Shown here: positions 6,741 to 25,444 of the stretch, in pieces | How positions within the stretch are numbered: the first letter of the stretch is position 1 | Layout: every line of letters starts with the position of its first letter | From: Pseudomonadota bacterium | GTDB taxonomy: Bacteria; Pseudomonadota; Alphaproteobacteria; Rhizobiales; Aestuariivirgaceae | Length of the DNA stretch: 64,000 bases | Reading direction: 5' to 3' | Assembly (NCBI GenBank): GCA_963205315.1 | Contig: CAUJIO010000051.1 | Coordinates: forward strand, 1-64,000 | Made by a program: the position numbers and the translations under genes | Notes under the pieces: generated by a model | Databases searched by the model: none | The model's input: only the letters and a program-made list of their open reading frames with translations | Told to the model about the DNA's origin: nothing

Positions 6741-6787
6741 TTGACGGAGCGTGGAGCAATGTTTTTAATATTACAGATGCAATAAAT
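6741..6787 (+). promoter_or_regulatory. Promoter region with operator site A (ATATTAC-AGAT-GCAATAAAT)
   Basis: In the divergent interval between the PotA gene and the first TetR gene. A candidate -35 TTGACG (6741-6746) is followed after 17 bp by TTTAAT. The palindrome ATATTAC-N4-GCAATAAAT lies at 6768-6787. It fits the same pattern as sites B-F: two AT-rich arms bounded by C and G around a 4-bp spacer. It is well placed to control the rightward operon and possibly the leftward one as well. Confidence 0.55.
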
Positions 6788-6884
6788 AACGCAGGTCGGA
6801 AATACGCGTGCCGGGAGGTGGATCTTCCGGCTCGGTATCCACGGCCGGTTCGCAACAGGCGGAACAACAGGATCGTTACGTAAG

Positions 6885-7538
6885 ATGCCTAGGATCGTGA
6901 AACACGATGACCGCCGCCGGCAGATCTGCGACGCGCTCCTCGATACGGTGGCGGACGCGGGCCTCAATGGCGCCACGATCCGCGCCGTGGCTGACCGGTC
7001 CGGCTGGTCGACGGGGGTCATCGGACATTATTTCCGCGGACGTCAGGACCTGCTTCTCGGAGGTTTGCGGCGCGCGGCCGAAATACTGGCTGAACACAAC
7101 ACCCGTGTCCTCGACACGCTCGATGGACTGCAGGCGCTCGAGCAGATACTTGAAGGTAGCGTACCGCTGGACGGCCGCCGCTTGGCGCTGAGCAGGATCT
7201 TCTTTTTCTTCTTCGTCGAAGCGATGACCGACCCCGCTCTGCGCCAAGAGGTGGAAACATATCTCGTCGGCTGGCGGAAATCCGTGGCTCGCGCCATCAA
7301 GCGCGCGCAGGAGGCGGGCGACATACCACCAGACGTCAACCGCAAGGCGATCGCGATCGATCTCGTCGGCCTCGTCGACGGCCTCAGCATTCACGCTCTC
7401 GTCGACGATGCCATCATGACGCACTTGCGCGAGCAGTCGCCGGTCCGCTTCTGGCTCCGGCGACTCACCGCGCCGGGTAGCTTCAGCAAATCACCCGACC
7501 GGGCCATTCAGAGAACCGCTTCCTCCTCAGCCGAATGA
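6885..7538 (+). CDS. TetR-family regulator, BetI-like (paralogue 1)
   Basis: 217 residues. The N-terminal TetR helix-turn-helix reads ATIRAVADRSGWSTGVIGHYF (in part, positions 31-51), followed by an all-helical ligand domain with a run of five phenylalanines (FFFFFVEAM) near 108. Length and layout match BetI, the choline-responsive repressor. A second copy at 20489-21142 is about 70 % identical by eye, with an almost identical recognition helix (STGVIxHYF). The two probably bind the same operators, sites A-F. Autoregulation is likely because site A lies directly upstream. The ligand is unknown. Confidence 0.88.
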   Translation: MPRIVKHDDRRRQICDALLDTVADAGLNGATIRAVADRSGWSTGVIGHYFRGRQDLLLGGLRRAAEILAEHNTRVLDTLDGLQALEQILEGSVPLDGRRLALSRIFFFFFVEAMTDPALRQEVETYLVGWRKSVARAIKRAQEAGDIPPDVNRKAIAIDLVGLVDGLSIHALVDDAIMTHLREQSPVRFWLRRLTAPGSFSKSPDRAIQRTASSSAE

Positions 7539-7563
7539 CAACAACAACATCAGAATTCATCAC

Positions 7564-9135
7564 ATGCTGACTGATCATCACTCTGCCCTCGGTGGCGTCG
7601 CCTCGATCCTCGGGGAGTATTCGCCGCAATGTTTCCACAAGCCGGACCGGCTTGCGCTCGTCTGGGAACACGGTGCGCTCACCTACAAGGATCTGCGGAA
7701 CCGTGCGCTGCGCCTTGCAGCGTCGCTCCGCGCCATGGGATTGCAGAGTGGAGACCGCATTGCGACGCTTCTCTATAACCGTGGCGAGACCTTCCAGCTC
7801 TATTTCGCCTGCGCCTTCGCCGGCCTCACCATCGTGCCGGTGAGCTTCCGCCTCACCGCGCCGGAAATCGCCTCCATTCTCAACGACTGTGGTCCGAAGG
7901 TCGTGTTCAGCGAGCCTGAACTCGCGCCGGTCCTGTCAGCCGCACTTCCCGATCTCGTAGCGAAGCCGCGTGTCGTGATGCTGGAGACCGAAGCGAGCGG
8001 GGCCGAATTCGAAAACCTCGCCACCGCGCCAGAACCGCTCCGCGAGCGCTACATGAACGACGTCCAAATGATCCTCTATACCTCCGGCACCACGGGGAGG
8101 CCCAAGGGCGTGGCGATGCGCTCGCAGGCCGTCACCTGGTGCGCGATGCAGCAGGTGACGCAGTTCCGGCATCTCGACCGCGACGCGGTGATGATGCTGA
8201 ACGCGCCAATGTTCAATACGGCGGCTATGAACGAGGCATCAATTCCGACCTTCTTCGCCGGCGGCACCGTCACCATCTTGCCGAGCCGCGGCTGGAGCGT
8301 CCACAAGCTCGCCGAATTCATCGGCAAGTGGAATGTGACGCATGTCCTCATGTTCCCCTCGATGTTCCGTGAACTGATCAAGGCGGACAACGAGGAACGC
8401 ATCCCGCTTCCCAATATGCGCTTCTGGTACACCGGCGGCGAGAACTGCCCGCCGGCGCTGATGTCGGAGGTGATGCGACGCTGGCCCCACATCAGCCTCG
8501 TCATTTCCTACGGTTCCACCGAATCGGGGATGGCAACTTACATAGAAGGCGAAGACATCGAAAGGCATGCGGGTTCCGTTGGCCGCGTGGCACCAGGGCA
8601 GTCGATCCGGCTCCTCGACCAGGACGGCAGGGACGTTCCGGTGGGCGAGATCGGCGAGGTCTGGACCGCCGGACCCGCTGTCATGCAGCACTATTGGGAA
8701 GCCCCGCAGCTCGATGCCGAGACGGTGCGCGACGGCTGGCTCAAGATCGGCGACCTCGCGCGCATGGACGAGGAGGGTTGGTTCTACATCGTCGGCCGCA
8801 CCAAGGACCTTATCATCTCGAAGGGTCAGAACATTTATCCCGCCGAGATCGAGAACGCCATCCGCCAGCATCCTTCCGTGCTCGATGTCGCGGTGGTCGG
8901 TGTGCCCGATGCCGAGTTCGGCGAGGCTGTCGCCGCCTGCGTCATGCTGCGGAAGGGCGCCGAGCCCGACCGCGACGGTATCATGGCCTTCACGCTCGAA
9001 CGGCTCGCCTCCTACAAGAAGCCGCGGCACATGTTCTTCATGGACCATTTCCCGATCCGCAACGCCACCAAGGTGGACAAGGCGGAATTGGCGCGCATCT
9101 GCGCCGCAAAACTCCACGAAACCGCAGGAGCTTGA
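7564..9135 (+). CDS. Acyl-CoA synthetase (ANL superfamily)
   Basis: 523 residues. The AMP-binding P-loop YTSGTTGRPKGV lies near 176-187, YGSTESG near 318, the hinge motif WLKIGDLARMDEEGWFYIVG near 394-413, TKDLIISKGQNIYP just after it, and a C-terminal lysine in NATKVDK near 500. This is a fatty-acid/CaiC-like CoA ligase. It should form the CoA ester on which the carboxylase, thiolase-fold, MaoC and SDR proteins act. It follows the TetR gene by 25 bp. The form of the last motif (NATKVDK instead of the usual TGK) is slightly unusual, but the lysine is kept. Confidence 0.9.
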   Translation: MLTDHHSALGGVASILGEYSPQCFHKPDRLALVWEHGALTYKDLRNRALRLAASLRAMGLQSGDRIATLLYNRGETFQLYFACAFAGLTIVPVSFRLTAPEIASILNDCGPKVVFSEPELAPVLSAALPDLVAKPRVVMLETEASGAEFENLATAPEPLRERYMNDVQMILYTSGTTGRPKGVAMRSQAVTWCAMQQVTQFRHLDRDAVMMLNAPMFNTAAMNEASIPTFFAGGTVTILPSRGWSVHKLAEFIGKWNVTHVLMFPSMFRELIKADNEERIPLPNMRFWYTGGENCPPALMSEVMRRWPHISLVISYGSTESGMATYIEGEDIERHAGSVGRVAPGQSIRLLDQDGRDVPVGEIGEVWTAGPAVMQHYWEAPQLDAETVRDGWLKIGDLARMDEEGWFYIVGRTKDLIISKGQNIYPAEIENAIRQHPSVLDVAVVGVPDAEFGEAVAACVMLRKGAEPDRDGIMAFTLERLASYKKPRHMFFMDHFPIRNATKVDKAELARICAAKLHETAGA

Positions 9136-9137
9136 TC

Positions 9138-10685
9138 ATGGCGCGTCCTCCGCATCCCGAATGGGCTCCGCTCCTTGAAGAGGTGGAGCGCCGCCGCGCC
9201 GTCGCCATGGCGTCCGGCGGTCCCGACCGCGTCGCGCGCGAGCACCGCTACGGCCGCTCGACAGCGCGCGAGCGCATTCTGAAGCTCGTCGACAAGGACA
9301 GCTTCATGGAGATCGGTACCTTCGTCACGACGCCCACCAAGGACGGTTCACTGCTCGCATCGACCTTCGTCTGCGGTCTCGCCGAGATCGACGGCCGCCC
9401 TGTTGCCATCGGCGGCGAGGACTTCAGCGTCGAAGGCGGCGGCACCGGCGTGCACCTGCCGCAGGCCAAGGGCGGCTGGGGCGGCTTCATCGAGGAATTC
9501 GCGCTGGGCTACCGCATCCCGCTGATCATGCTGATCAACGGCGTCGGTGGCTCCGTGATCCTGCAGGATGCCATCGGCTATCCCGAATTGCAGGCCGCGA
9601 ATCCGACCTTTCCCATGTTCGATCTGATGGAAAAGGTGCCGGTTCTCGCCGCCGTTCTCGGCCCCACCGCAGGAAGCTCTGCGGCGCGCGCGCATCTCTC
9701 GCATTTCTCTGTGATGACCAAGGACAACGGCTGCCTCTTTGCCGGCGGACCGCCAGTCGTCAAGCAGGCGATGGGCCTCGATATCGACAAGTTCGCGCTG
9801 GGCGGCGCCGACGTCCATGTGAAGACCTCAGGGCTGATCGACAATCAGGCGGCAAACGAGGACGAGGCGCTCGCGCAGCTTCGCCAGGTCTTCGCTTATC
9901 TGCCCAACAATATCGGCGAACGCCCGCTCGTGAAGGGTGAGTGGAGCGAGAATGACCAGGAAGAACTCCTCGCCATCGTCTCTCCCAGCACACGGCGCAT
10001 CTATGACGCGCAGGCGCTGCTCCGCTGTGTCGCCGACACCGCTAGCTTGTTCGAGATCACGCCGGACTATGGCCGCTCCGTGCGGCTGGGCTTCGGCCGG
10101 ATTGAAGGCCATACCGTAGGCTTCATCGCCTCCGACAGCCGCACGCTGGCGGGCTCGCTCGATGTGCAGTCCTCGCTGAAGCAGGCGAAATTCACCGAGA
10201 TGTGCGACCGCTTCCACATCCCGATTGTCTATTTCGCCGATGTGCCGGGCTTCCTCGTCGGCCCCAAGGCGGAGGAGGCGGGCGTGCTGAAATTCGGCGC
10301 CATGGCGCTCAGGGCCATCCAGAAGGCGAAGGTGCCGGTCTATACCGTGCAGGTCCGCCGCTCTTACGGATTGGGCGGCGTCGCCACCGGCAGCGCCGAC
10401 CCGATGAGCATCCGTCTCTGCTGGCCGAGTGCGGTCTGGGGCGACATGCCGCTCGAAGGCGGCGTCGAAGCCGCATTTCGCGCCGAACTCGACGCAGCAC
10501 CGCCCGAGGAACGCGCTGCGCTGAAAGAGAAGCTCGTGAAGAAGTTCGAGAGCCAGACCTCCGTCTGGCGCGCCATCGAGAATTTCAGCGGTGAGGAGAT
10601 GATCGATCCCCGCCACACCCGCCGTTATCTCTCGCGCCTCGTGAAGCTCTACTACCGCCGTCCCTTCACGGGGCCTGCGGCGTGA
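9138..10685 (+). CDS. Acyl-CoA carboxylase carboxyltransferase (beta) subunit
   Basis: 515 residues of the PccB/MccB-type carboxyltransferase family, with two crotonase-like halves. The N half contains GPTAGSSAARAHLSHF and LFAGGPPVVKQAMG, as in propionyl-CoA carboxylase beta. The C half contains ADVPGFLVGPKAEEAG and YTVQVRRSYGLGGVATG. There is no biotin domain, so it needs the BCCP at 3853-5520. ATG at 9138 has caggag seven bases upstream. The stop overlaps the GTG start of the fused permease. The usual biotin-carboxylase-beside-carboxyltransferase order is broken: the two subunits sit in divergent operons that share a regulatory region. Confidence 0.9.
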   Translation: MARPPHPEWAPLLEEVERRRAVAMASGGPDRVAREHRYGRSTARERILKLVDKDSFMEIGTFVTTPTKDGSLLASTFVCGLAEIDGRPVAIGGEDFSVEGGGTGVHLPQAKGGWGGFIEEFALGYRIPLIMLINGVGGSVILQDAIGYPELQAANPTFPMFDLMEKVPVLAAVLGPTAGSSAARAHLSHFSVMTKDNGCLFAGGPPVVKQAMGLDIDKFALGGADVHVKTSGLIDNQAANEDEALAQLRQVFAYLPNNIGERPLVKGEWSENDQEELLAIVSPSTRRIYDAQALLRCVADTASLFEITPDYGRSVRLGFGRIEGHTVGFIASDSRTLAGSLDVQSSLKQAKFTEMCDRFHIPIVYFADVPGFLVGPKAEEAGVLKFGAMALRAIQKAKVPVYTVQVRRSYGLGGVATGSADPMSIRLCWPSAVWGDMPLEGGVEAAFRAELDAAPPEERAALKEKLVKKFESQTSVWRAIENFSGEEMIDPRHTRRYLSRLVKLYYRRPFTGPAA

Positions 10686-12361
10686 GCGCTGCCCGCAGAA
10701 ATATTGTCGTCCGCTCGGCGCTGATCGCGCCGGCAGCAATACTCTTCGGAGTTATGCTGCTGTGGCCGCTTCTGAACATCCTGCTCCGCAGTCTCAACCA
10801 GAAGGGCCGCGCCAGTATTGCAGACGGCATCTACTTGGGGCACTACACCGCGCTGGTGGAAGATGCGCTGCTCCGCCAGGTGGTGACGCACAGCCTGATG
10901 CTGGCGATGGTCGCGACATTGGTGACGGCGCTGCTCGCTTTCCCGACGGCATACATCATCTCGCGCCTCTCAAGAGAACTGTCCTCGCTGATGATGGTGG
11001 CGGTCCTGATGCCCTTCTGGGTGTCAATTATTGTGCGCCTCTTCGCCTTCACCACGATTCTCGGAACGCAGGGCATCATCAATTCGGGACTTGGCCTGAT
11101 CGGCATCGGGCCGCTGCCGATGCTCTACAATACCTTCGCCACCATCACCGGCATGGTGGCCTATCTTCTACCTTACCTCATTCTCATCCTCGTTTCGGCG
11201 ATGCGGTCGATCGATGTTTCGCTGCTCACCGCCGCGCGCACCATGGGCGCCCCCGAACACCGGGTCTTCTTCGATATTTATTTTCCCCAGGTGCGTCCGG
11301 CTCTGCTCAGCGGCGCGGTGCTGGTCTTCGTCCTGGCGCTCGGCTTCTTCCTGACGCCGGCGATCCTCGGCGGACCCTACAACCTCACGATTCCCATCTT
11401 CATCCAGCAGCAGATCCAGATCTTCCAGTGGGGCAAGGCCGCCGCCATGGGAATCGTCCTGCTCGTCGTCTCGGTCGCGGGCTACGTCATAGCGCTCCGC
11501 ATTGGAGGAAACGGCGTCCTGGCGCCGGCGCAGGGCGGCACGCGTGGCGCCGCGGCGCATGAACCGTTGAGGCTCACGCCCACGGTGCTGCTGTGCTGGA
11601 TCGCGCTGGCGGTCGTCATGATCATCCTGATCTCGCCGCTCCTCGTCGTCATGCCCACGGCTTTCACCGAAACGACGCAGATCCGCTTTCCGCCGGTTGG
11701 CTTCACCGGGAAATGGTTTGCCGAGGTTCTCACCTCCAGCATGTGGATCGAGGCTTTCCTGAAGAGCATCCGCGTCGCGCTGGCGACGGGCGTGCTGGCC
11801 GGCCTCGTCGGCCTCGCGCTGGCGCGGGCCGCATCGCGCACGGGATCGCGGCTGCTGCAGGGCCTCATTCAGGCGGCGGCCATCGCACCGCTGATCGTAC
11901 CCGTTATACTTCTTGCTATCGGTGTCTTCGACGTACAGGGCAAGCTCGGGCTCATCGGTACTGATGCGGGACTCATCTTTGCACACACGCTGCTCTGCGT
12001 GCCGCTCACCTTCCTGATCTTCAGTAACGCGCTCTCCTTCGTCGACATTTCAATCGAGCAGGCGTCCTGGACCATGGGAGCAGGGAACATCCGCACCTTC
12101 TGGTCGATCGTCATCCCAGGAATCATGCCGAGCGTGGTCGGTGCCTTCCTGATTTCCTTCGTCTCCTCGTGGGACGAAGCGGTGATCGCGATGTTCCAGA
12201 CCGGCCTCGACAAGACGCTTCCCGTCACGATCTACTCCTTCCTGCGCAGCGGCATCACGCCCGCGGTCTCGGCCGTCGCCACCCTCATCACGCTTCCGGT
12301 TCTCGTAGGCGGCATCGTCTTCGGCATACGCGCCCTGCGCAAACCCTCTCTCAAAACATGA
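10682..12361 (+). CDS. Fused PotB-PotC ABC permease
   Basis: 559 residues, about twice the length of a single polyamine-type permease, with two six-helix halves. Each half has its own EAA loop, which contacts the ATPase: ARTMGAPEHRVFFDIYFPQV near 189-208 and ASWTMGAGNIRTFWSIVIPG near 460-479. The start of the second half (TAFTETTQIRFPPVGFTGKW) resembles the PotC N-terminus. The GTG start overlaps the carboxyltransferase stop. It should form the membrane channel for the PotA-type ATPase at 5540 and the binding protein at 25472. The three parts of one importer are spread over 20 kb and two strands but share the operator motif. Confidence 0.88.
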   Translation: MSAARRNIVVRSALIAPAAILFGVMLLWPLLNILLRSLNQKGRASIADGIYLGHYTALVEDALLRQVVTHSLMLAMVATLVTALLAFPTAYIISRLSRELSSLMMVAVLMPFWVSIIVRLFAFTTILGTQGIINSGLGLIGIGPLPMLYNTFATITGMVAYLLPYLILILVSAMRSIDVSLLTAARTMGAPEHRVFFDIYFPQVRPALLSGAVLVFVLALGFFLTPAILGGPYNLTIPIFIQQQIQIFQWGKAAAMGIVLLVVSVAGYVIALRIGGNGVLAPAQGGTRGAAAHEPLRLTPTVLLCWIALAVVMIILISPLLVVMPTAFTETTQIRFPPVGFTGKWFAEVLTSSMWIEAFLKSIRVALATGVLAGLVGLALARAASRTGSRLLQGLIQAAAIAPLIVPVILLAIGVFDVQGKLGLIGTDAGLIFAHTLLCVPLTFLIFSNALSFVDISIEQASWTMGAGNIRTFWSIVIPGIMPSVVGAFLISFVSSWDEAVIAMFQTGLDKTLPVTIYSFLRSGITPAVSAVATLITLPVLVGGIVFGIRALRKPSLKT

Positions 12362-12376
12362 CAGGTGAAACATCAC

Positions 12377-13558
12377 ATGACAGCGTCTGACGCCTTCCCG
12401 CGCGGATCAGCCTGCATCGTCGGCGCCTTCGAGTCGCCGCGGCGCAAGGCCCCCAACATCCATCCTTACCAGATCCATGCCGAGGTCATCGGCGCGGCTC
12501 TGGCCGATTCCGGGATCGGCATCGAGGAGGTCGACGGCTTCGCCACTGCGGCCTCCTTCCCGGCGGAAGCAGGCTGGCAACTCAACGCGGTCGAAATCGC
12601 TGAATATGTCGGCCTCAAGCCGTCATGGATCGACAGCACGGACTTGGGGGGAGCGATGTCGCTCTCTCACGTGGGGCATGCGGTTGCCGCCATCAATGCT
12701 GGGCTCTGCAAGGTCGCGGTGATCAGCTACGCCTCCTCGGGCCGCTCCTGGCAATTGCCGGCGACGGATTTCAACACTGGCCGCAGTGGCCCGGGTCAAT
12801 ACGAAGTACCTTACGGTGCCTCGACGATTTCAGCCTATGCGCTCGCCGCCACGCGGTACATGCATCAGTATGGCCTGACCTCCGAGCAGCTGGCGCAGAT
12901 CGCCGTCCAGATGCGCGCCTATGCAGCGCTGAACCCGCAGGCCATGTACCGCAATCCGATCACAGTGGACGAGGTCCTCTCATCGCCGATGATCTCGACG
13001 CCGCTGCACAAGCTCGATTGCTGCGTGGTGAGCGACAGCGGTGGCGCACTTGTCATCACCTCGAAAGAGCGCGCGCGCGATTCGAAGCGCGGCAAGGGGC
13101 CTGTGGTGCTGGGCTTCGGCGAGGCCGCAAGCCACGCCCAGATGAACCAGATGGCAGACATGACGACGACCGCCGCCGAATTCTCCGGCAAGCGCGCCTT
13201 CGCGACAGCCGGTCTCACGCCCGCCGACATCAAGGTGGCGCAGATCTACGACAGTTTCACCATCACCGTTGCCCTATCGCTGGAGGCGCTCGGCTTCTGC
13301 AAGCGCGGCGAGGTCGGCGAATTTGTCGCGAGCGGACAGCTGGCACCGGGCGGACGGCTCCCGATCAATACCGATGGGGGCGGCCTGTCGTCGAACCATT
13401 CCGGACGGCGCGGTATGTATGCGATTATCGAAGCGGTGCGGCAGCTCCGTGGCGAAAGCCCAGGCTACCAGCTCGACAATCCCGAACTCTGCCTCGTCAA
13501 CGGCACGGGCGGCTGGCTCTCGGCCACCGCGACACTCATCCTGGGGAAAGCATCATGA
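12377..13558 (+). CDS. Thiolase-fold protein lacking catalytic cysteines (probable aldolase-type)
   Basis: 393 residues of the lipid-transfer (SCP2-like) thiolase family, with YDSFTIT, GGGLSSNHSG and a C-terminal LVNGTGGWLS. The first catalytic Cys of thiolases would fall in DLGGAMSLSHVG (89-100), but the position is Gly. The second, usually in a CxG motif, is replaced in NGTGG (375-379). It therefore cannot run the normal Claisen reaction. In steroid side-chain catabolism, Cys-less thiolase-fold proteins (Ltp2 type) with a DUF35 partner are retro-aldolases acting after a MaoC hydratase. The next two genes here are DUF35 and MaoC. The ATG at 12377 has AGGTGA eight bases upstream. Confidence 0.85.
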   Translation: MTASDAFPRGSACIVGAFESPRRKAPNIHPYQIHAEVIGAALADSGIGIEEVDGFATAASFPAEAGWQLNAVEIAEYVGLKPSWIDSTDLGGAMSLSHVGHAVAAINAGLCKVAVISYASSGRSWQLPATDFNTGRSGPGQYEVPYGASTISAYALAATRYMHQYGLTSEQLAQIAVQMRAYAALNPQAMYRNPITVDEVLSSPMISTPLHKLDCCVVSDSGGALVITSKERARDSKRGKGPVVLGFGEAASHAQMNQMADMTTTAAEFSGKRAFATAGLTPADIKVAQIYDSFTITVALSLEALGFCKRGEVGEFVASGQLAPGGRLPINTDGGGLSSNHSGRRGMYAIIEAVRQLRGESPGYQLDNPELCLVNGTGGWLSATATLILGKAS

Positions 13559-13962
13559 TCGAGGTCGATTCCATCCTCCCGGCGAAAGACGCCGTATCTA
13601 CCCAATGGTTCGAGGGCATTGCGCAGGGCAAGCTCCTCCTGCAGCGTGATCCCAAAACCGGCAAGGCGCAGTTCTATCCCCGCGCCCACATCGCCGGCGC
13701 GCCGGACCGCGAGCCTGAATGGTTCGAAGCCTCGGGGAAAGCGACGCTCTACACCTACACGGTGGTGAAGCGGTCCGTGCATCCGCAATTCGCGTCCTGC
13801 ACACCCTTCACGCTGGCGGTGGTGGACCTAGCTGAGGGCGCGCGCATGACCACATGGATCGTCGACGTGCCTGAAGAGGAGCTGCGCTGCGATATGCCGC
13901 TCAAGGTCACGTTCCGCGATATCCACCCCGGGCTCACCATGCCCTGCTTCACGAAGGCCTGA
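13555..13962 (+). CDS. DUF35 OB-fold protein without zinc-ribbon cysteines
   Basis: 135 residues. The C-terminal OB-fold (KATLYTYTVVKRSVHP onward) is typical of the DUF35 partners of SCP2-like thiolases. The N-terminal rubredoxin-like ribbon normally has four Cys as two CxxC pairs, but here it reads LLQRDPKTGKAQFYPRAHI with none. The only Cys residues are much further along. Start overlaps the thiolase stop (ATGA), so the two proteins are probably made in equal amounts and form a complex. The role is structural or CoA-binding, not independently catalytic. Confidence 0.85.
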   Translation: MIEVDSILPAKDAVSTQWFEGIAQGKLLLQRDPKTGKAQFYPRAHIAGAPDREPEWFEASGKATLYTYTVVKRSVHPQFASCTPFTLAVVDLAEGARMTTWIVDVPEEELRCDMPLKVTFRDIHPGLTMPCFTKA

Positions 13963-13963
13963 T

Positions 13964-14404
13964 ATGGATACGACGTTCGACATGATCGAGGTGGGCTCGG
14001 AATATCATTCCGCCGGCCGCACCGTGACGGAAGCCGACCTCGTCAATTTCGCCGGCGTGACCGGGGACTTCAATCCACTCCACATGGACGAGCAATGGGT
14101 GAGGGCGAATACACCGTTCCCGACGCGCATCGCGCATGGACTGCTGGTGACCTCGATCGGCGAGGGGCTGCGCTGCCCGGCGCTCGACAGCTGGAGGATT
14201 ATCGCTTTTCTCGAGAACCAGCGGAAGATGCTGCTGCCCGTTCTGCCAGGCGATCGTATCCAGCAGAACTACAAGGTGACGTCGAAAAAGCCATCCTCGA
14301 AGGACCCGTCGCGTGGCGTCGTAGAACTCGAAGTCACCATCACCAACCAGCGCGGCGAGACCGTGCAGTCTGGCTACAACAAATACATGATCGGAGGCCG
14401 CTGA
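13964..14404 (+). CDS. MaoC-like (R)-enoyl-CoA hydratase
   Basis: 146 residues of the single hot-dog MaoC family. The hydratase motif GDFNPLHMDEQWVRAN near 33-48 contains the catalytic Asp and His, followed by RIAHGLLVTSIGEGL. It would hydrate a 2-enoyl-CoA to a 3-hydroxyacyl-CoA. It sits between the DUF35 gene and an SDR gene, and its stop overlaps the ATG of the SDR by one base. In context it supplies the hydroxyacyl-CoA that the thiolase-fold protein could cleave or the SDR oxidise. Confidence 0.87.
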   Translation: MDTTFDMIEVGSEYHSAGRTVTEADLVNFAGVTGDFNPLHMDEQWVRANTPFPTRIAHGLLVTSIGEGLRCPALDSWRIIAFLENQRKMLLPVLPGDRIQQNYKVTSKKPSSKDPSRGVVELEVTITNQRGETVQSGYNKYMIGGR

Positions 14405-17635: not shown

Positions 17636-17651
17636 TCAGCGTCACCTCGCG

Positions 17652-17678
17652 TGGCCCGGTTCGTCGCAAGACGGGCCA
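17652..17678 (+). terminator. Stem-loop after the dimethylglycine-dehydrogenase-like gene
   Basis: TGGCCCG (17652-17658) pairs with CGGGCCA (17672-17678) just after the stop at 17635. There is no strong U-run, so it may only be a transcript-end stabiliser. It marks the likely end of the operon that began at 6885. Confidence 0.4.
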
Positions 17679-17749
17679 GGGCCATGTGTTTCCACTCCCG
17701 GATAACTGCGGCAAATCCGCATTGATCATATTTGCCCATCTAACATCAC

Positions 17750-17788
17750 TTGACATCGCCCATTTTAAATATAATAATTGTTATAAAT
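17750..17788 (+). promoter_or_regulatory. Promoter with operator site B (TATAAT-AATT-GTTATAAAT)
   Basis: TTGACA at 17750-17755, 17-bp spacing, then AATAAT. The palindrome TATAAT-N4-GTTATAAAT at 17770-17788 overlaps the -10 element. It lies 94 bp upstream of the GlpD-like gene. The distance from the -35 to the operator spacer is the same as at site C. A repressor bound here would block RNA polymerase. Confidence 0.65.
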
Positions 17789-17881
17789 AAAAGCAGGCGG
17801 CGCGGAGTGTTGACTTGCAAAACCGTAGACCACCCTCCGTTGGGTCCGGCTCCACGTGAATTGGCATCATGGGATTGAAAC

Positions 17882-19417
17882 ATGCGGAATGCGATCGAAA
17901 CCCTTGACGGTGAGAAATTCGATGTCCTGGTCATCGGCGCGGGCGTAAGCGGCGCGAATACTGTCGAGAGCCTCGCTGTCGCCGGCTATAAGGCGCTGAT
18001 CGTCGACAAGGGTGACTTCGGCAGCGGCGCCACCAGCAAGGCCAGCAAGATCGCGCACTGCGGGCTGATATATTTGGCACCAATCAAGTCTGCCTGGGAA
18101 TATGTGGCCGACCCTCGCAAGCTGTTGCGGGCGCTCCGCATCGCCGCCCCGATGATGAAGGCGCGCGCCGATCTCGTCCGCAATGTCCCGCACCGCATGC
18201 GCGGCTTCGACTTCTATTATCCGATCTACAAGGAAACGCCCTATTCGCCCTGGCAGGCGCGGCTCGGCTTCAGGATGCTGGCGGCCTCGGGCCCCAAGGA
18301 CGTCCCGCTGCAACAGGCAATGGTGAAGCCCAGCGAGGTCCGCAGCAATCCGCTGCTCTCGAAGCTTCGGGATTTCGACAAGATCAAGAGCTTCGCCAGG
18401 TTCCGCGAATACCAGTTCAACTGGCAGGAGCGTCTCTGCGTCGATGCCGTGATGCGTGCCGAGAGGCTCGGCGCCAAGTCGCGAAATTACTGTGAAGTAA
18501 CGAAGGCCACCAAGGATGCAGCCGGCACCTGGCATGTGGAACTCGCCGACCGTGCCGGCGGCAATGGCAAGGCGACCGTAACGGCGGGCGCCATCGTCAA
18601 CGCCGCAGGTCCCTGGATCGACACGGTGAACGGCCGATTCGACCATCCGGTGCAGCGCTGCGTCAGGAGTACCAAGGGCGTTCACATGATGGTCCGCCTG
18701 CCGGAGGACTGCGGCAACATCGGCGTGGTGACGTCGAACGAGCTGCAGGGCATGTTCCAGGCCATTCCGTGGCGCGACGGCCTCTATTACTTCGGCCCCA
18801 CCGAGACGGAACATGACGGCCCGATCACCGATGTCGTGCCGACGGAGCACGACATCAATCTCCTGCTCGAGAGTTGCCGCCAGATGTATCCTGCCCTCAA
18901 TCTGACCCGCAAGGACGTAGTCTTCGCCTGGGCGGGCTTGCGTCCGTTGACCTATAATGGACCAACGCCCAGCGGCCGCGACCGGAAGCTCCACGACATC
19001 GGCAACGGCCTCGCGAAGGGCTTTGCCCTGACCTGGGGCCGCCTCATCGACCAGCGCTCGACAGGCGCCCTGATCGCCGAGAACATCATGAAGGTCCTGA
19101 AGCCAAGCTCCACGCCGAAGCAAAGCGCCTTCGTGTCGCCGGAGACCGTCGTGTCAGGATCGCTAACCAAGGGTCTGACGCCGGAGATCGTCGCCGAGCT
19201 GAAGCGCGCGGCCCGCTCGGAGCAGGTCCTGAACCTCGCCGATCTCCTCCTGCGCCGGACCAATATCGGTTTCAGCGATCTGCTGAAGAAGGACGACGTC
19301 GTGGCGATTGCCGGGCACGTTGCGCCGGATCTTGGCTGGGATAACGCCCGCGCGGCAGCCGAGGTCGACGACTATGTCGCCTACATGAAGCACAACCATC
19401 TCCTGACCGTAAGCTAG
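17882..19417 (+). CDS. GlpD-like FAD-dependent dehydrogenase
   Basis: 511 residues. The N-terminal FAD motif DVLVIGAGVSGANTVESLA is near 14-32, with SGATSKASKIAHCGLIYL following as in glycerol-3-phosphate dehydrogenases, and a C-terminal GlpD-type helical domain from about 395. It oxidises the alcohol carbon of a phospho-polyol or a similar hydroxy compound and feeds electrons to quinone. With a kinase in the same regulon, a phosphorylated substrate is plausible, but the true substrate is not known. It has its own promoter with operator B, and the bicupin gene follows by 18 bp. Confidence 0.82.
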   Translation: MRNAIETLDGEKFDVLVIGAGVSGANTVESLAVAGYKALIVDKGDFGSGATSKASKIAHCGLIYLAPIKSAWEYVADPRKLLRALRIAAPMMKARADLVRNVPHRMRGFDFYYPIYKETPYSPWQARLGFRMLAASGPKDVPLQQAMVKPSEVRSNPLLSKLRDFDKIKSFARFREYQFNWQERLCVDAVMRAERLGAKSRNYCEVTKATKDAAGTWHVELADRAGGNGKATVTAGAIVNAAGPWIDTVNGRFDHPVQRCVRSTKGVHMMVRLPEDCGNIGVVTSNELQGMFQAIPWRDGLYYFGPTETEHDGPITDVVPTEHDINLLLESCRQMYPALNLTRKDVVFAWAGLRPLTYNGPTPSGRDRKLHDIGNGLAKGFALTWGRLIDQRSTGALIAENIMKVLKPSSTPKQSAFVSPETVVSGSLTKGLTPEIVAELKRAARSEQVLNLADLLLRRTNIGFSDLLKKDDVVAIAGHVAPDLGWDNARAAAEVDDYVAYMKHNHLLTVS

Positions 19418-19435
19418 AAAGCACAGGGCATCAGC

Positions 19436-20140
19436 ATGACCAAGCTCAGCCTCTACAAGGCCGCCGAACGTACCTTCACCGATTTTGCTTATGGCAAGAT
19501 TTCCGAGGATCGCTGCAGCAACATCGACCACGACTCGCTGATCGCGGGCGAGATGAAATTTTCCAACGCGGTTGTGCATCACTATGCCGACCACGATGCC
19601 TACTTTATGCTGGTCGCCGGCAGCGCAAAAGTGGAAACCAATGGCACCGAAGTGATCTTCGGCTACTCCGATGCGATCTGGCTGCCGCGCGGCGCCAAGG
19701 CGCGCTTCATTCCCGACGGCGAGGCGACGTTCTTCTATTCATTCACGCCAGGCAGCCTGCCGGAACCGCTCAAAAATGCTGAGCCGACCAAGCCATCTTC
19801 CGTCTACAGGAATGCCGACCGGCGATACCTGCCTCGGCGAGGAAAGACCTTCACTGCCTGGATGTGCCGCGAGGTGTTCCGCGACAATAGCAACGCAATG
19901 GGCAACGGCATCATCGTCTACGAGAACGCCCGCATGCCGCGCATCCCGGGCTTCGACTGCTACTACCGCTGCCTCGAGGGCGAGTTCCGCATGCGGACGT
20001 CGACCGACCTCTATGTTCTGAAGCCCGGTGATGCCGTGTGGATGCCGGACGTCTCTGAGATGCTCTGGGAGATCGACGAATACACCGCTTGCGCCTATGC
20101 CCTCCATCCGGTCGACTGGGAAATTCGCAAGGCGAAGTAA
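19436..20140 (+). CDS. Bicupin protein (EutQ-like cupin domains)
   Basis: 234 residues with two cupin halves. The first contains NAVVHHYADHDAYFMLVAGS and YSDAIWLPRGAKARFIPDG; the second FDCYYRCLEGEFRMRTSTD and LKPGDAVWMPDVSEMLWEI. The form resembles the cupin of ethanolamine-utilisation EutQ. It is co-transcribed with the GlpD-like gene. The function is unknown: it may be an isomerase or a metal-dependent enzyme acting on an intermediate. The classical two-His-one-Glu metal set is incomplete by eye, so it may not be a metalloenzyme. Confidence 0.7.
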   Translation: MTKLSLYKAAERTFTDFAYGKISEDRCSNIDHDSLIAGEMKFSNAVVHHYADHDAYFMLVAGSAKVETNGTEVIFGYSDAIWLPRGAKARFIPDGEATFFYSFTPGSLPEPLKNAEPTKPSSVYRNADRRYLPRRGKTFTAWMCREVFRDNSNAMGNGIIVYENARMPRIPGFDCYYRCLEGEFRMRTSTDLYVLKPGDAVWMPDVSEMLWEIDEYTACAYALHPVDWEIRKAK

Positions 20141-20488: not shown

Positions 20489-21142
20489 ATGCCGCGCATC
20501 GTAAATCATGACCAGCGCCGCAGGGAAATCTGCGATGTGCTGTTGACCATCGTTGCGGAGACCGGAATCAATAGCGCAACGATCCGTAACGTCGCAGAGC
20601 GCTCCGGCTGGTCGACAGGCGTCATCGTCCACTATTTCCGCGATCGCAAGGACCTCTTGCACGGTGGTTTGCGCCGCGCCGCCGAATTGCTGTCGGAACA
20701 TAACTCGCGGGTGCTGGCGACGCTCGACGGACTCCAGGCACTTGAGCAGTTGCTTGAGGGCAGCATTCCGCTGGATAGCAGAAGGCTTGCCCTCAGCCGC
20801 ATCTTTTTCTTCTTCTTCGTCGAGGCGATGACCGATATCGAGTTGCGCAAGGAAGTCACCGAATATCTGGTGTCATGGAGGAAGTCCGTTGGCCTCGCGC
20901 TGAAACGCGCCCAGGAACTGGGGGAGGTTTCTCCCGACATCAACCGCCGCGAAATTGCAAAGGACCTTACCGGTCTCGTCGATGGCATGGGCCTTCATGC
21001 ACTGCTCGATGACGCAGTTCTGACGAGGCTGCAGGAACAATCACCCGTCCGGTTCTGGCTTCGGCGGCTGGTGGCGCAGCCGGGCGCCGCAAGGATACAG
21101 TTGACTGGACCGGCTGAAACCACTGGCGCCACAGTCCCCTAG
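20489..21142 (+). CDS. TetR-family regulator, BetI-like (paralogue 2)
   Basis: 217 residues from ATG 20489 (ggtggag upstream); an upstream in-frame start would add residues with no family likeness. The helix-turn-helix ATIRNVAERSGWSTGVIVHYF (in part) has the same recognition helix as paralogue 1 at 6885, and the ligand domain keeps FFFFFVEAM and SPVRFWLRRL. About 70 % identity by eye marks a recent duplication within the cluster. The ligand pocket differs more than the DNA-binding part, so the two may answer to different inducers at the same operators. Confidence 0.88.
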   Translation: MPRIVNHDQRRREICDVLLTIVAETGINSATIRNVAERSGWSTGVIVHYFRDRKDLLHGGLRRAAELLSEHNSRVLATLDGLQALEQLLEGSIPLDSRRLALSRIFFFFFVEAMTDIELRKEVTEYLVSWRKSVGLALKRAQELGEVSPDINRREIAKDLTGLVDGMGLHALLDDAVLTRLQEQSPVRFWLRRLVAQPGAARIQLTGPAETTGATVP

Positions 21143-21295
21143 CTGTCACCTCGTCGGCGAACAACTGCTCGAATGACCGGCCCGCGATCGGCCGGTAGTC
21201 TGTCACCGACTGCTCTGTAAACAGGCCATTGGTGCAACGGCACGTGCGAATGCCGATGCTGGAGGCCTCCAACTCATTTCTTCTTCAGTATTCCC

Positions 21296-21334
21296 TTGAC
21301 AGGACGACATTTTATTATAACATTCGTTATAAAT
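21296..21334 (+). promoter_or_regulatory. Promoter with operator site C (TATAAC-ATTC-GTTATAAAT)
   Basis: TTGACA at 21296-21301 and, after 17 bp, AACATT. The near-perfect palindrome ATTATAAC-N4-GTTATAAAT runs to 21334 and overlaps the -10 region. It is 100 bp upstream of the GMC oxidoreductase gene. The spacing from -35 to operator is the same as at site B. Confidence 0.68.
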
Positions 21335-21433
21335 AGAGCGTTGCAGTGGCGTTAGCTGACGGCGGTGTGATCAGGATCGCCGCACGCAACTAACACGAGA
21401 CGCTTGAAACCTCGTGCAGGAAGGGTACCTGAC

Positions 21434-23065
21434 ATGCGCTTTGATTACATCGTCGTCGGGGCAGGGGTGGCGGGCTGCATCATAGCCTCCCGTCTCTCGG
21501 AGGATCCGGCCAACCGTGTCCTTCTTCTCGAAGCCGGCGGCAAGAACGACAGGCTCATCGTGCGCATGCCGGCCGGCACGGCCTATGCCTATCAGACCAG
21601 GGCTCTGAACTGGGGCTACAGGTCGGGCCCGGAGCCACAGCTTGGAAACCGCGAACTCGACGAGAAGCGGGGCCGCGGCATTGGCGGCAGCGCCGCCATC
21701 AACGCAATGGTCTTCAACCGCGGCAATCCGAACGATTTTGAAGACTGGAAGCGTTCCGGTCTTTCGGAATGGGGCTATGCCAACTGCCTCCCTTACTTCC
21801 GCCGGATGGAAACATTCGGCGGCGGCGCCAATGAATGGCGCGGCGGTGACGGACCTCTGCGCATCAGGCCCGGCCAGGCCGACCACATTCTCTATGACAG
21901 CTTTATCAGCGGCGGCGAGCAGGCAGGTCATACATATGTGAGCGACCACAACGCCTTTCGCCAGGAAGGCGTGCACCGTGAACAGGCCTATATCGGCAAT
22001 GGTCTGCGTTGGTCGGCGGCGCGAGGCTATTTAATCCCGGCGCTGGAGCGTCCGAACCTCACGGTCTGGACCGACTGCTACGTGAACGGCATCGTCATCG
22101 AGAACGGCACGGCGCGGGGTGTTAACGTCACGCGCGGCGGCGAAGACCGTCAGATCACGTGCGAGCGCGAGGTGGTGATGTGCGCCGGCGCCTTCAACAC
22201 CCCGCAGCTCCTGATGCTCTCCGGCATCGGCCCGGCGGACCACCTGAAGGCGCTTGACATTCCGCTCAAGCTTCACGTCCCGCGTCTCGGCAAGGACCTC
22301 GAGAACCACCCGGGTTTCGTCCTCACATATTCGATCGATGAGAGATACTCCCTGGCCCGCGAACTCGGTCTCGTCAATCGCGCCGCCCTCGGTCTTCAGT
22401 GGCTGTGGAACAAGACGGGTCTTGCCGCCAGCAATTTCTATGAGGTCGGCGCCTTTCTCCGCACGCGGTCGGACTTGGCCGCGCCAAACATCCAAATCGA
22501 ATTCATGGGCTTGATCCGTACACTGACGGGTCGCGGCGTAAAGGCGGCTCCAGGGTTCACCGTTTACACCTGTCTCACGCGCCCGCGAAGCAGGGGTGAG
22601 GTGACGCTTCGCTCGCGCGATCCACGTCAGCAGCCCTCTCTCGTCTTCAACCATCTCGCGGAGCGTTCCGACATTACGGACTTCATCGAGGCCTTCCGCA
22701 CCACGCGCGCGTTCTTCGCCCAGCCCGCATGGGAGAAGCTCAACGCCCGGGAAATCGATCCTGGCCCCACGGTGCAGACCGACGCCGACATCGAGGCCTT
22801 CCTCAGGCGCAATCTCGGCACTCATTATCATCCTTCGGGCACCTGCAAGATGGGTACCGGCTCTGAGGCTGTCGTGGACCCCGCCGGACGTCTGCGCGGC
22901 ATTGAGGGGCTGCGCGTCGCGGATGCGTCCGTGCTGCCCAACACCGTCTGTGGCAACATCAGCGCCAGCGTCGCCATGGTCGCGGAAAAGCTCTCTGACG
23001 CTATCCGAGGCCGCACGCCGTTGCCCCCCTCAAATGCCGACTATTACCGCGCCGTGCCAGCCTGA
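21434..23065 (+). CDS. GMC oxidoreductase (choline-dehydrogenase-like)
   Basis: 543 residues from ATG 21434, with aggaagg upstream. The FAD motif YIVVGAGVAGCIIASRLSED is at 5-24, the GMC signature GIGGSAAINAMVFNRGNPND at about 87-106, the second signature GAFNTPQLLMLSGIG near 256, and the catalytic HYHPSGTCKMG at about 465 with PNTVCGN later. It is closest in form to BetA-type choline dehydrogenases. It should oxidise an alcohol group on the amine substrate to the aldehyde or acid. It is controlled by operator C and followed 30 bp on by the NmrA-like gene. Confidence 0.88.
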   Translation: MRFDYIVVGAGVAGCIIASRLSEDPANRVLLLEAGGKNDRLIVRMPAGTAYAYQTRALNWGYRSGPEPQLGNRELDEKRGRGIGGSAAINAMVFNRGNPNDFEDWKRSGLSEWGYANCLPYFRRMETFGGGANEWRGGDGPLRIRPGQADHILYDSFISGGEQAGHTYVSDHNAFRQEGVHREQAYIGNGLRWSAARGYLIPALERPNLTVWTDCYVNGIVIENGTARGVNVTRGGEDRQITCEREVVMCAGAFNTPQLLMLSGIGPADHLKALDIPLKLHVPRLGKDLENHPGFVLTYSIDERYSLARELGLVNRAALGLQWLWNKTGLAASNFYEVGAFLRTRSDLAAPNIQIEFMGLIRTLTGRGVKAAPGFTVYTCLTRPRSRGEVTLRSRDPRQQPSLVFNHLAERSDITDFIEAFRTTRAFFAQPAWEKLNAREIDPGPTVQTDADIEAFLRRNLGTHYHPSGTCKMGTGSEAVVDPAGRLRGIEGLRVADASVLPNTVCGNISASVAMVAEKLSDAIRGRTPLPPSNADYYRAVPA

Positions 23066-23095
23066 CGTCGCTATACTGAGACCGGAGGAGTTGAA

Positions 23096-23953
23096 ATGTA
23101 CACTGTACTCGTAACTGGTTCGCGCGGGAAAACCGGCCGCGCCGTGTTGGACGCGCTGAAGGATCATCCGGGATTTCGTTTGATCGGCGCATCCAGCAAA
23201 CCCGCGGATGCGTCGCAGGTCCGCCTCGACTGGGGCGACAAGGCAACATGGGCTACCGCGCTTTCTGGCGTTGACGCGCTCTATCTCGTGAAGCCGACCG
23301 ACAACCTGACCGATCCCGCTGCGCCTGATGTCGGCGACAAGGTCCGCGCGTTTCTCGCAACCTCTCGGTCGCTGAAGCGGGTGGTGCTGCTGTCAGAGAT
23401 CGGCGCTTCGGGCCGCGACGAGTCGCTCGACGAGCGGCGCGTCGAACGAGCGGTAGAGGAGAGCGGCACCGAATGGACAATTTTGCAGCCGAACTGGTTC
23501 ATGCAGAATTTCAGCGATGCCAGCTTCTATCTGCCTGCAGTCAAGAGCGGTGGCACGATCAGCGTTCCGACGGCGGGAAAGCCGACGAGCTTCATCGATA
23601 CCCGCGACATTGCCGATGTCGTCGCCACCGCGCTGGCAAGGGGCGGCCACGGCCAGCGGACCTACACGCTGACAGGCCCCGAGGCCTACACATGGTCCGA
23701 TGCGCTCGCCATGATCTCAGAGGCCGGCGGGCGGCGCGTAACTTATGTCGACATTGCGTTGGAAGACTTCTTGACCAATCCGAAGATCACCGCGCTGCCG
23801 GAGAAGGTGAGGGCGCACTACCGCGGCGTCTACGACTTGCTGTCCAGTGATGCCGCGGGCGCAGTGACCGGTCACGTCGAGGCGGTACTCGGCCGTCCCG
23901 CGCGCGGCTTCAAAGCTTTCGTAGAAGAGAATGCCGCGTTGTGGAGGGCCTGA
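23096..23953 (+). CDS. NmrA-like NAD(P)-binding protein
   Basis: 285 residues of the atypical SDR (NmrA/quinone-reductase-2-like) family. The N-terminal motif is VLVTGSRGKTGRAVLDAL and the ligand-pocket stretch WTILQPNWFMQNF lies near 127-139. A good ribosome-binding site (ggagg) precedes the ATG. Such proteins are either redox sensors or reductases. It is co-transcribed with the GMC gene. It ends 13 bp before the convergent SDR gene. Confidence 0.78.
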   Translation: MYTVLVTGSRGKTGRAVLDALKDHPGFRLIGASSKPADASQVRLDWGDKATWATALSGVDALYLVKPTDNLTDPAAPDVGDKVRAFLATSRSLKRVVLLSEIGASGRDESLDERRVERAVEESGTEWTILQPNWFMQNFSDASFYLPAVKSGGTISVPTAGKPTSFIDTRDIADVVATALARGGHGQRTYTLTGPEAYTWSDALAMISEAGGRRVTYVDIALEDFLTNPKITALPEKVRAHYRGVYDLLSSDAAGAVTGHVEAVLGRPARGFKAFVEENAALWRA

Positions 23954-23966
23954 ACGGGCTTGTGCC

Positions 23967-24734
23967 TCAACGGGCGTAAGTCCCGTTGTTGGCGTCAAGC
24001 GTCGACCCCGTCATTGCGATCTGCGACGGCCTGAGGGTGAAGGCCACCATCTCCGCGATCTCCTCGGGGCTCGCCATGCGTCCCGTGGGAATACCCCTGA
24101 GCACGGCCTCCTCGCCGCCATAGGAGGGGGCTGCTGCGATGCCCATTTCCGTGCTGATCCAGCCTGGCGCGATGGCCATGCTGTAGATCTTCTCTGCCGC
24201 GAAGTTCCGTGCGATTGTCTTGGTCGCGTTGGAGAGGGCGGCCTTGGTGGCGCCATAGGCGATCGTGTCGCCGGAATAGCCGCGGTGTGCGGTTACACTG
24301 GACACGTTGATGATCCTACCCCCGCCGATCTCCCGAAAATGCCGGATCGCCAGTGCCGAAAGATCCATTGCCGAGAAGAGATTGACCTGAAACTCTTTCC
24401 GCCATGCCGCACGCCAGTCGTCCATGTCGGCATCGATGGCGATCTCTGTCCGCATTCCGGCGTTATTCACTAGCGCGTCGATTCGACCGGTGGCCTTCAC
24501 GGCCTCCGCCCATACCCTTTCAGCCGCCTTCTCTTCGCTGAGATCTCCCCGGACGAGAACGCCCCGGCCGCCGATCTCCCGGAGGAGGCTTTCTGCATGG
24601 CTCATGGAAGAACTGTAGTGGATGATAGGGAAGGCGCCTTCGGCCACGAGCCGCCGCACGATCGCCGCTCCGACGCCGCGTGATCCACCGGTAACAAGGA
24701 CCTTCAGTCCGTCGAGGGGGCGCGCCGCATTCAT
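23967..24734 (-). CDS. SDR-family oxidoreductase
   Basis: 255 residues from ATG 24734, chosen because ggagaag lies eight bases upstream; two in-frame starts further up (24749, 24761) are less well placed. TGGSRGVG near 14-21, NNAG near 91, the Ser in NVSSVTAHRG, and YGATK near 163-167. The C-terminus is shortened (DANNGTYAR), which is unusual for FabG-like proteins. It is divergent from the DUF1330 gene, and its promoter carries operator D. Confidence 0.82.
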   Translation of the reverse strand: MNAARPLDGLKVLVTGGSRGVGAAIVRRLVAEGAFPIIHYSSSMSHAESLLREIGGRGVLVRGDLSEEKAAERVWAEAVKATGRIDALVNNAGMRTEIAIDADMDDWRAAWRKEFQVNLFSAMDLSALAIRHFREIGGGRIINVSSVTAHRGYSGDTIAYGATKAALSNATKTIARNFAAEKIYSMAIAPGWISTEMGIAAAPSYGGEEAVLRGIPTGRMASPEEIAEMVAFTLRPSQIAMTGSTLDANNGTYAR

Positions 24735-24769
24735 TGGATACTTCTCCATACAACAGAGCAAAGCAATAA

Positions 24770-24811
24770 ATATAACAATTGTATTATATAGAGAGGCTTT
24801 CTGTACAGCAA
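24770..24811 (-). promoter_or_regulatory. Promoter with operator site D (ATATAAC-AATT-GTATTATAT)
   Basis: Read leftward: -35 TTGCTG (24811-24806), 17 bp, -10 TATAAT (24788-24783). The palindrome ATATAAC-N4-GTATTATAT covers 24770-24789, over and just past the -10. It controls the SDR gene at 24734-23967. Confidence 0.62.
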
Positions 24812-24892
24812 AATTATCTCGGGGGTCCAGCAGGTCGCTTGAGGCCCGGGTTTAAAGGCCCGGAAATTCGCTGCAAATGGCGCAGCTCTCTG

Positions 24893-24938
24893 TTGACGAA
24901 GGCGACAACCATCGTATATTGATACAAGCGTTATAAAT
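24893..24938 (+). promoter_or_regulatory. Promoter with operator site E (TTGATAC-AAGC-GTTATAAAT)
   Basis: TTGACG (24893-24898), 16 bp, TATATT (24915-24920), then the palindrome TTGATAC-N4-GTTATAAAT at 24919-24938. It lies immediately upstream of the DUF1330 gene. The right arm is identical to that of sites B and C; the left arm is weaker. Confidence 0.6.
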
Positions 24939-24956
24939 ATTTGAGTGGAGACCGGA

Positions 24957-25247
24957 ATGCCCCGCGCTTTGATGCTTGTTCAAGCCACCATCACAGACCC
25001 CGCGGCCTGGGGTGCATATGCGAAGGCGAGCGGTCCCGTCATGTCGAAGTGGGGTGCGGAACTGATCGTGAAGCCTGACAGCCTCGAGGTGCTCGAAGGC
25101 CAGTCGCGCCCGCGCGTCGTCGTCTTCGCCTTCGAGAGCATGGAAAAGGCGCGTGGTTTCTGGAATAGCCCGGAATACGCGGAACTCAAGGCGATGCGGA
25201 TCGGTGCCGGAGAGGCGGATTTTCTTCTGCTCGAAGAGGCGCGCTAA
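24957..25247 (+). CDS. DUF1330-family small protein
   Basis: 96 residues from ATG 24957 (gtggag upstream). This is a ferredoxin-like alpha/beta dimeric fold, with ALMLVQATITDPAAWGAYAK at the start and VVFAFESMEKARGFWNSPEY in the middle, as in DUF1330 proteins. The function is unknown in the family. Its promoter carries operator E, and an intrinsic terminator follows, so it forms a one-gene unit of the regulon. Confidence 0.82.
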   Translation: MPRALMLVQATITDPAAWGAYAKASGPVMSKWGAELIVKPDSLEVLEGQSRPRVVVFAFESMEKARGFWNSPEYAELKAMRIGAGEADFLLLEEAR

Positions 25248-25298
25248 GGGTCTCGATGGCCGCGTGGTCTGACGGCGCGGTGTCATGTCAATAAGGAG

Positions 25299-25334
25299 CA
25301 GGGCGGTGCCTCTTGGCAGCGCCCTGTTCATCTT
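25299..25334 (+). terminator. Intrinsic terminator after DUF1330 gene
   Basis: CAGGGCGGTGCC (25299-25310) and GGCAGCGCCCTG (25315-25326) form a 12-bp stem with one mismatch and a TCTT loop, followed by TTCATCTTT. Confidence 0.7.
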
Positions 25335-25397
25335 TGAAATATGCCTCCAGGACTTCTCGAAAGGCTGTTTATTTAAAGCGGCCATTATAAAAACTGC

Positions 25398-25444
25398 TTG
25401 ACTTGCTGGCCGTTCAGGCCGTTAATATTACGGCCGTAACAAAA
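25398..25444 (+). promoter_or_regulatory. Promoter with operator site F (ATATTAC-GGCC-GTAACAAAA)
   Basis: TTGACT (25398-25403), 17 bp, GTTAAT, then ATATTAC-GGCC-GTAACAAAA at 25425-25444 with a perfect inner TTACGGCCGTAA palindrome. It is upstream of the binding-protein gene at 25472. The left arm is the same as that of site A. Confidence 0.6.

Follow-up and report, generated by a model that had tools for sequence, protein, structure and literature searches.

Six operator-like palindromes in a catabolic gene cluster

In a 64,000-nucleotide stretch of DNA from an alphaproteobacterium of the family Aestuariivirgaceae (GenBank assembly GCA_963205315.1, contig CAUJIO010000051.1, positions 1 to 64,000; hereafter the window), six palindromes with the common consensus nTAnnAC-N4-GTnnTAn stand at the predicted promoters of a catabolic gene cluster that also encodes two paralogous TetR-family regulators, T1 (6885..7538, plus strand) and T2 (20489..21142, plus strand, its start set at an internal ATG). 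Judged from their sequence and placement, the palindromes are very probably the operators of the cluster's own TetR family. The signal is their concentration at six promoters within 18.7 kb and not uniqueness of the motif. Most likely the two sister repressors control the six sites, and a split of these sites among the pair may be under way.

The first candidate operator, A (6768..6785, plus strand; ATATTAC-AGAT-GCAATAA), precedes the T1 operon, B (17769..17786, plus strand; ATATAAT-AATT-GTTATAA) the DAO-cupin-T2 unit, and C (21315..21332, plus strand; TTATAAC-ATTC-GTTATAA), a perfect 7-4-7 palindrome, the GMC-NmrA unit. Candidate D (24770..24787, minus strand; ATATAAC-AATT-GTATTAT in the plus reading) lies before a minus-strand short-chain dehydrogenase (SDR) gene, E (24919..24936, plus strand; TTGATAC-AAGC-GTTATAA) before a DUF1330 gene, and F (25425..25442, plus strand; ATATTAC-GGCC-GTAACAA) before the gene of an ABC solute-binding protein (SBP). 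A first-pass annotation had reported six matching inverted repeats. The six are real and far above background, while the string that it quoted is exact at C only (2, 1, 0, 3, 2 and 3 mismatches at A to F). Its coordinates hold for 6768, 24770, 24919 and 25425, and those given for B (17770) and C (21314) are off by one.

When up to three mismatches are allowed on both strands, WTATWACNNNNGTTATAAAT has 10 matches in the window against 0.04 expected from shuffled sequence. Nine of these fall on the six sites, three of which (B, C, D) match in either orientation; the remaining match is a weaker site at 25371-25390. For comparison with genomic background, control DNA of 400 kb was taken from the same genome (20 stretches, 61% GC). 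A symmetric matrix of the window sites gives A to F scores of 22.0-28.6 with a control maximum of 16.7, and a matrix made from relatives only gives 18.8-22.9 with a control maximum of 15.7, so that under neither matrix does any position of the 400 kb reach the weakest of the six. A score of 20 on the window matrix is not attained anywhere in 4.7 Mb of first-order simulated sequence. The matrix from ten sites of relatives places A to F at ranks 1-6 of the window; the leave-one-out ranks are 6, 4, 3, 3, 6 and 6.

Two weak operator-like sites, absent from the first-pass set, accompany A and F. F-prime (25373..25390, plus strand) lies 52 bp upstream of F, and its score of 16.7 on the window matrix equals the control maximum. 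A-prime (6633..6650, minus strand), about 17 bp upstream of the inferred start of the ABC ATPase gene, scores 9, which is within the control range; its case rests on a position that matches better sites in the relatives' loci L033 (8706; 14.0) and L056r (8437; 10.8).

Promoter context of the sites

Sigma70-like promoters had been proposed at every site, each before a different transcription unit, and in agreement with this all six stand at predicted promoters of six units. The best -35/-10 pairs at A to F have 2, 1, 2, 3 (minus strand), 2 and 3 mismatches in 12 hexamer positions. Among control positions, pairs with at most three mismatches occur at 0.2% of 20,000 random ones and at 2.8% of 1,445 AT-rich ones. 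The promoter of D, on the minus strand, has a weak -35. From the -35 to the operator centre the distance is 36 at A, 28 at B and C, 29 at D, 35 at E and 36 at F. The equal spacing of B and C had been pointed out before; A and F form a second such pair. The promoter of A resembles those of L033 and L056. A TTGAC hexamer precedes A and F by equal distances; in L033 and L056r it lies one base further away. Since F shares its -35 spacing with A and nearly matches L033 and L056r, it is built like the SBP promoter of the relatives, here lying away from the T1 operon.

The palindromes overlap the -10 at B, C and D, and at A, E and F they extend from the end of the -10 over the start region. Overlap with AT-rich, promoter-like -10 regions at all sites is also what would be seen if the repeats were bound by a different regulator, or were simply AT-rich promoter sequence. 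We consider this explanation improbable: the symmetry reaches past the -10, nothing as good is present in the 400 kb of the same genome, and counterparts occur beside relatives of T1 on plasmids and other replicons of several genera.

Counterparts in other genera

Relatives of T1 were sought in 41 genomes (its own, 24 of the genus and 16 of the order), in 385 of the class and in 394 and 391 of two families, and relatives of T2 in 146 genomes of one genus and 397 of one order; these sets may overlap, the thresholds ranged from 1e-3 to 1e-40, and the larger searches scored the best candidates per genome only. Further searches covered genome contigs (2 loci) and 72,556 plasmid records (4 records). 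Close relatives, 65-80% identical, are present in Mesorhizobium sp. Root102, a Xanthobacteraceae metagenome-assembled genome and the genomes G683, G1072 and G1274, as well as on plasmids of S. meliloti, A. tumefaciens, S. chiapasense and Aureimonas, the coordinates of G592 being a duplicate of those of Aureimonas. A relative of 38% identity occurs in G257, a member of the class, and the best match among the 24 genomes of the same genus is 27% identical. At the thresholds searched, two close TetR copies occur in this genome only, and T2 was not found in any other genome.

All nine clusters of relatives have the genes for SBP, TetR, ligase and carboxyl transferase in that order, with the ATPase gene divergent, so that the tetR gene always lies between the solute-binding and ligase genes, with the SBP gene directly before it. 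The rest of the gene order is also present in three annotated plasmids. Ten stretches of relatives, 17.9-32.6 kb each, were compared with the window: the carboxyl transferase is 75-83% identical in all of them, the DAO, cupin, GMC and DUF1330 proteins have no counterpart in them (E up to 1e-15), and the SDR has distant matches only. NmrA relatives, 46-51% identical, adjoin the clusters of L037 and L039. The homologous clusters thus share with the window an ATPase gene divergent from SBP, TetR, ligase and carboxyl transferase genes, and operator-like sites in the gap, but they contain one TetR each and the SBP gene heads the operon, whereas here there are two TetR and the SBP gene is separate.

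The comparison of homologous clusters, which had been suggested as a check, gave similar sites in other genera: they lie in the corresponding promoter gap, next to the tetR orthologue. Scoring of the relatives with the window matrix, which is the non-circular direction, places the best match of the ATPase-SBP gap at rank 1 (L033), 1 (L034), 2 (L036), 1 (L037), 1 (L038) and 2 (L039) among 20,604-32,610 positions, the gaps amounting to about 0.6-1% of a locus. The gap sites of three loci added afterwards have ranks 3 and 4 (L053r), 1 (L055r), and 1 and 2 (L056r). In five relatives a pair of sites 52-53 bp apart stands before the orthologous SBP gene, and the spacing of F and F-prime is 52 bp. 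In the relatives the motif is seen at the transport/ligase core only, systematic scoring having covered the ATPase-SBP gaps. Matches inside the TetR gene (16212; L036, L037, L039) and inside the MaoC gene (23511-23516; L036, L037) were rejected as operators, as they look like conserved coding sequence.

The core cluster is plasmid-borne in L036, L037, L038 and L039 (Rhizobiaceae, Aurantimonadaceae), and three of these plasmids are predicted to be conjugative and one non-mobilizable. Its presence on plasmids, together with 24 genomes of the same genus that have no close T1 relative, suggests horizontal transfer of the core cluster. The neighbourhoods of GMC- and DAO-type homologues on plasmids contain other gene sets.

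Evidence against an operator reading

Several results weigh against the palindromes being operators. The stricter palindrome TWATAACNNNNGTTATWA catches just three of the six sites, its four window matches (0.34 expected) being B, C and E plus the weak site; the six therefore resemble one another without being uniform. The reversed-pattern control for WTATWACNNNNGTTATAAAT has 17 matches genome-wide, and a relaxed 16-base core has 44 matches on both strands of the genome against 70 for its reversed control. In the relatives, the in-gap scores of L036 (8.8), L055r (10.6) and L053r (11.6) are low next to the control maximum of 16.7; in these three loci rank and place carry the weight, the absolute scores being within background. 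The ten sites of relatives were chosen by eye with the window motif in mind, which makes the direction from relatives to window partly circular, and close kinship within L036/L053, L033/L056 and L037/L039 reduces the loci to about six independent lineages.

A genome-wide motif scan, likewise proposed as a check, gave 13 matches to WTATWACNNNNGTTATAAAT in the 4.67 Mb genome, 10 of them within the window, but three pattern-found places outside it also have high scores: C15:34414 (window matrix 26.0, relatives' matrix 17.7), C82:41869 (22.9 on the latter) and C47:12244 (18.2 on the latter). A closed genome-wide regulon is not claimed. A search of the whole genome with a sequence-only site model, which had no match at E up to 10, was uninformative because the best window sites have E values of about 0.1 in 64 kb and thus about 7 genome-wide.

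The first of these places, C15:34414-34433 (L002:1501-1520), has the sequence ATATAAAAATTGTTATAAAT on the minus strand, 5' of a dienelactone-hydrolase-like gene; one half carries AA instead of AC, and the site is possibly a further member of the regulon or a chance match. C82:41869 sits between the ends of two convergent open reading frames (ORFs), and C47:12244 (L058:1245-1262) is a perfect palindrome, TATGACGCCCGTCATA, a short distance before an ATG.

Two sister regulators

Both regulators belong to the TetR family by an N-terminal helix-turn-helix and a TetR-type C-terminal domain, the Pfam models TetR_N and TetR_C_6 both scoring above their cut-offs. T1 and T2 are 74% identical over 200 residues, which replaces an earlier figure of about 70%. 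In the phylogenetic tree they form a supported clade with L033 and L056r (98/96), four of the nine inner branches being open, and the branch of T2 is longer than that of T1 (0.87 vs 0.24). The best match among solved structures is PDB 2gfn ("HTH-type transcriptional regulator pksA related protein"; E 2.8e-42, residues 1-182).

The two proteins had been called BetI-like, and this applies to the C-terminal domain only, which in BetI is likewise TetR_C_6; a further resemblance is the linkage to amine-type catabolic genes, including one for a GMC oxidoreductase. Identity with BetI was rejected: T1 and T2 reach 65.3 and 66.7 bits against a cut-off of 118, and 64.1 and 64.1 against 201.3, and the operon content differs. 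The sole protein that passes the BetI equivalog, a true BetI, lies elsewhere in the genome (C37:13646-14206, 217.2 bits). The GMC protein of the cluster scores above the cut-off of the choline dehydrogenase subfamily model (640.6 vs 605) and below that of the betA equivalog (586.7 vs 732.1). The ORFs scanned from 3.3 to 26.6 kb include no aldehyde dehydrogenase; one is encoded at 45258-46766.

A functional parallel is offered by MtrR of Neisseria, whose operator is given as MCRTRCR-N4-YGYAYGK in the structural report (PMC8053128), and the consensus of the six sites has this 7-N4-7 layout. The half-site sequence and the gene context are different and the protein similarity is 19 bits against a cut-off of 280, which limits MtrR to a comparison of how the system works. 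According to the same report, Tyr48 contacts in the crystals the base directly 3' of the YpG step, that is, base 3 of the half-site that follows the N4 spacer (PMC8053128). Residue 47 of T1 aligns with this tyrosine (offset +1 in the match to the MtrR profile, the register of the recognition helices being set by sequence only). The position holds no tyrosine in the window proteins: it is Gly in T1 and Val in T2. The recognition helices, WSTGVIGHYF in T1 and WSTGVIVHYF in T2, differ at this residue alone, and an earlier statement that they are the same does not hold. Eight of the nine relatives have Gly47, Aureimonas has Ser, and PDB 2gfn has Asn at the corresponding position.

How the regulators share the sites

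The first-pass annotation had concluded that the cluster forms one regulon with two sensors. The sites do look like one local TetR-type circuit; the reading as one regulon with two sensors is uncertain, given relatives with one TetR, sites that these have only at the transport/ligase core and a half-site difference between A and F on one side and B to E on the other. If both paralogues bound all sites with similar affinity and answered to two inducers, the core nTAnnAC-N4-GTnnTAn at all six sites would be explained, as would recognition helices identical save for residue 47 and the presence of Gly47 relatives beside half-sites whose base 3 is A, C, G or, at times, T. The differences at residue 47 and at base 3 speak against such a common regulon, and the occurrence of T2 in no other genome at the thresholds searched means that nothing shows the pair to have been kept as equals. 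We give the common regulon slightly less than an even chance.

The alternative is that T1, with Gly47, serves A and F and that T2, with Val47, serves B to E, some sites perhaps being shared. Here residue 47 would read base 3, Val favouring thymine, a hypothesis that draws on the alignment with the base-contacting tyrosine of MtrR. T is found at base 3 in 6 of the 8 half-sites of B to E, in 0 of the 4 of A and F, and in 2 of the 26 of the Gly47 relatives (pooled P 2.5e-4). With two Mesorhizobium-group sites, A-prime and F-prime added, the counts are 6/8 vs 4/38 (P 5e-4). The Ser47 protein of Aureimonas adjoins a third type of half-site, GTGTTAA, with G or T at base 3, and the longer branch of T2 would also suit a divided regulon. 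Against it stands a grouping made post hoc, with half-sites that are not independent and an assumed assignment of sites to paralogues, and within the window alone the contrast has a P of 0.06, or 0.13 with A-prime and F-prime. Moreover, F-prime, beside F, has T at base 3 in both halves, and D and E have A in one half each. For DarR, the base contacts of the matching tyrosine are reported to vary between subunits (PMC10636190). A division of the sites is thus a tentative proposal that draws on few sites, appreciably less probable than even.

The common and the divided regulon have in common a mechanism in which a T1 or T2 dimer on the 7-N4-7 palindrome would keep RNA polymerase off the promoter, until an inducer releases the repressor; the substrate taken up by the transporter, or an acyl-CoA derived from it, is the probable inducer. 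The palindromes stand at the predicted promoters of both tetR units (unit A for T1, unit B for T2), and both regulators would therefore be autoregulated. Repression by T1 of its own operon at A would correspond to the arrangement in the other genera, where the SBP gene heads the operon. In this genome a predicted promoter-operator of like build (F) belongs to the SBP gene alone, T2 is there as a second regulator, and the motif is found at four further units (B to E). The cluster might be a duplication caught in the act. One residue exchange at the position of the recognition helix that would read the base, Gly47 to Val47 (Ser47 in Aureimonas), would then go with one altered base of the half-site, and a circuit that elsewhere serves one operon, often on a plasmid, would have divided into two sub-regulons and taken in four new units in a single genome; we put this forward as rather doubtful. 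A literature search, to which most subscription journals were out of reach, returned nothing relevant on the operator string or on a similar case of paralogues.

Local TetR circuits are common, which makes the regulon itself an ordinary system of a known kind. Its interest is that a one-regulator circuit of several genera can be read beside an expanded version with two regulators, and this makes it possible to test directly, on a small scale, how a duplicated repressor changes together with its operators. In addition, the motif can serve the annotation of a catabolic cluster that is found on several plasmids.

Genes of the cluster and its surroundings

Left of operator A, on the minus strand, lie the genes for an ABC transporter ATPase (5540..6616, divergent operon, start inferred) and a biotin carboxylase with a biotin carrier domain (3853..5520). 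On the plus strand, T1 is followed by genes for an AMP-binding acyl-CoA ligase (7564..9135), a carboxyl transferase subunit (9138..10685, start inferred), an ABC permease with two permease domains (10682..12361), a thiolase-like protein (12365..13558), an OB-fold protein like the C-terminal part of ChsH2 (13567..13962), a MaoC-like hydratase (13964..14404), a short-chain dehydrogenase (14407..15144, start approximate) and a dimethylglycine-dehydrogenase-like FAD oxidoreductase with GCV_T domains (15185..17635). The last of these is 83-90% identical in the Mesorhizobium-group loci L033, L054 and L056.

Unit B encodes a DAO-type FAD oxidoreductase and a EutQ-like cupin (17882..20140, plus strand), and unit C a GMC oxidoreductase of the choline-dehydrogenase-like type and an NmrA-like protein (21434..23953, plus strand, start inferred). 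They are followed by the short-chain dehydrogenase of unit D (23967..24749, minus strand, start approximate), the DUF1330 protein of unit E (24957..25247, plus strand) and the ABC solute-binding protein of unit F (25472..26572, plus strand).

As leads to the substrate, tropane alkaloids, butyrobetaine/carnitine and BetI gave no fit in the literature. In the relatives, neighbouring genes include gabD/gabT, folD, purU and ETF-QO, and these suggest, as a speculation, an N-methylated amine with an acyl side chain. Beyond the biotin carboxylase gene, the minus strand at 899-3417 contains genes for a class III aminotransferase and an APH-type kinase. On the other side, the region 27186-54082 encodes amidases, a DMFA2_C protein (N,N-dimethylformamidase-like), an AraC regulator, choline-kinase/APH-type kinases, an SBP_bac_5-type ABC system, an aldehyde dehydrogenase, a glycine-betaine-type (OpuAC) ABC system and a P5CR-like protein; its single motif match above 11 is at 44136 (15.2 on the relatives' matrix).

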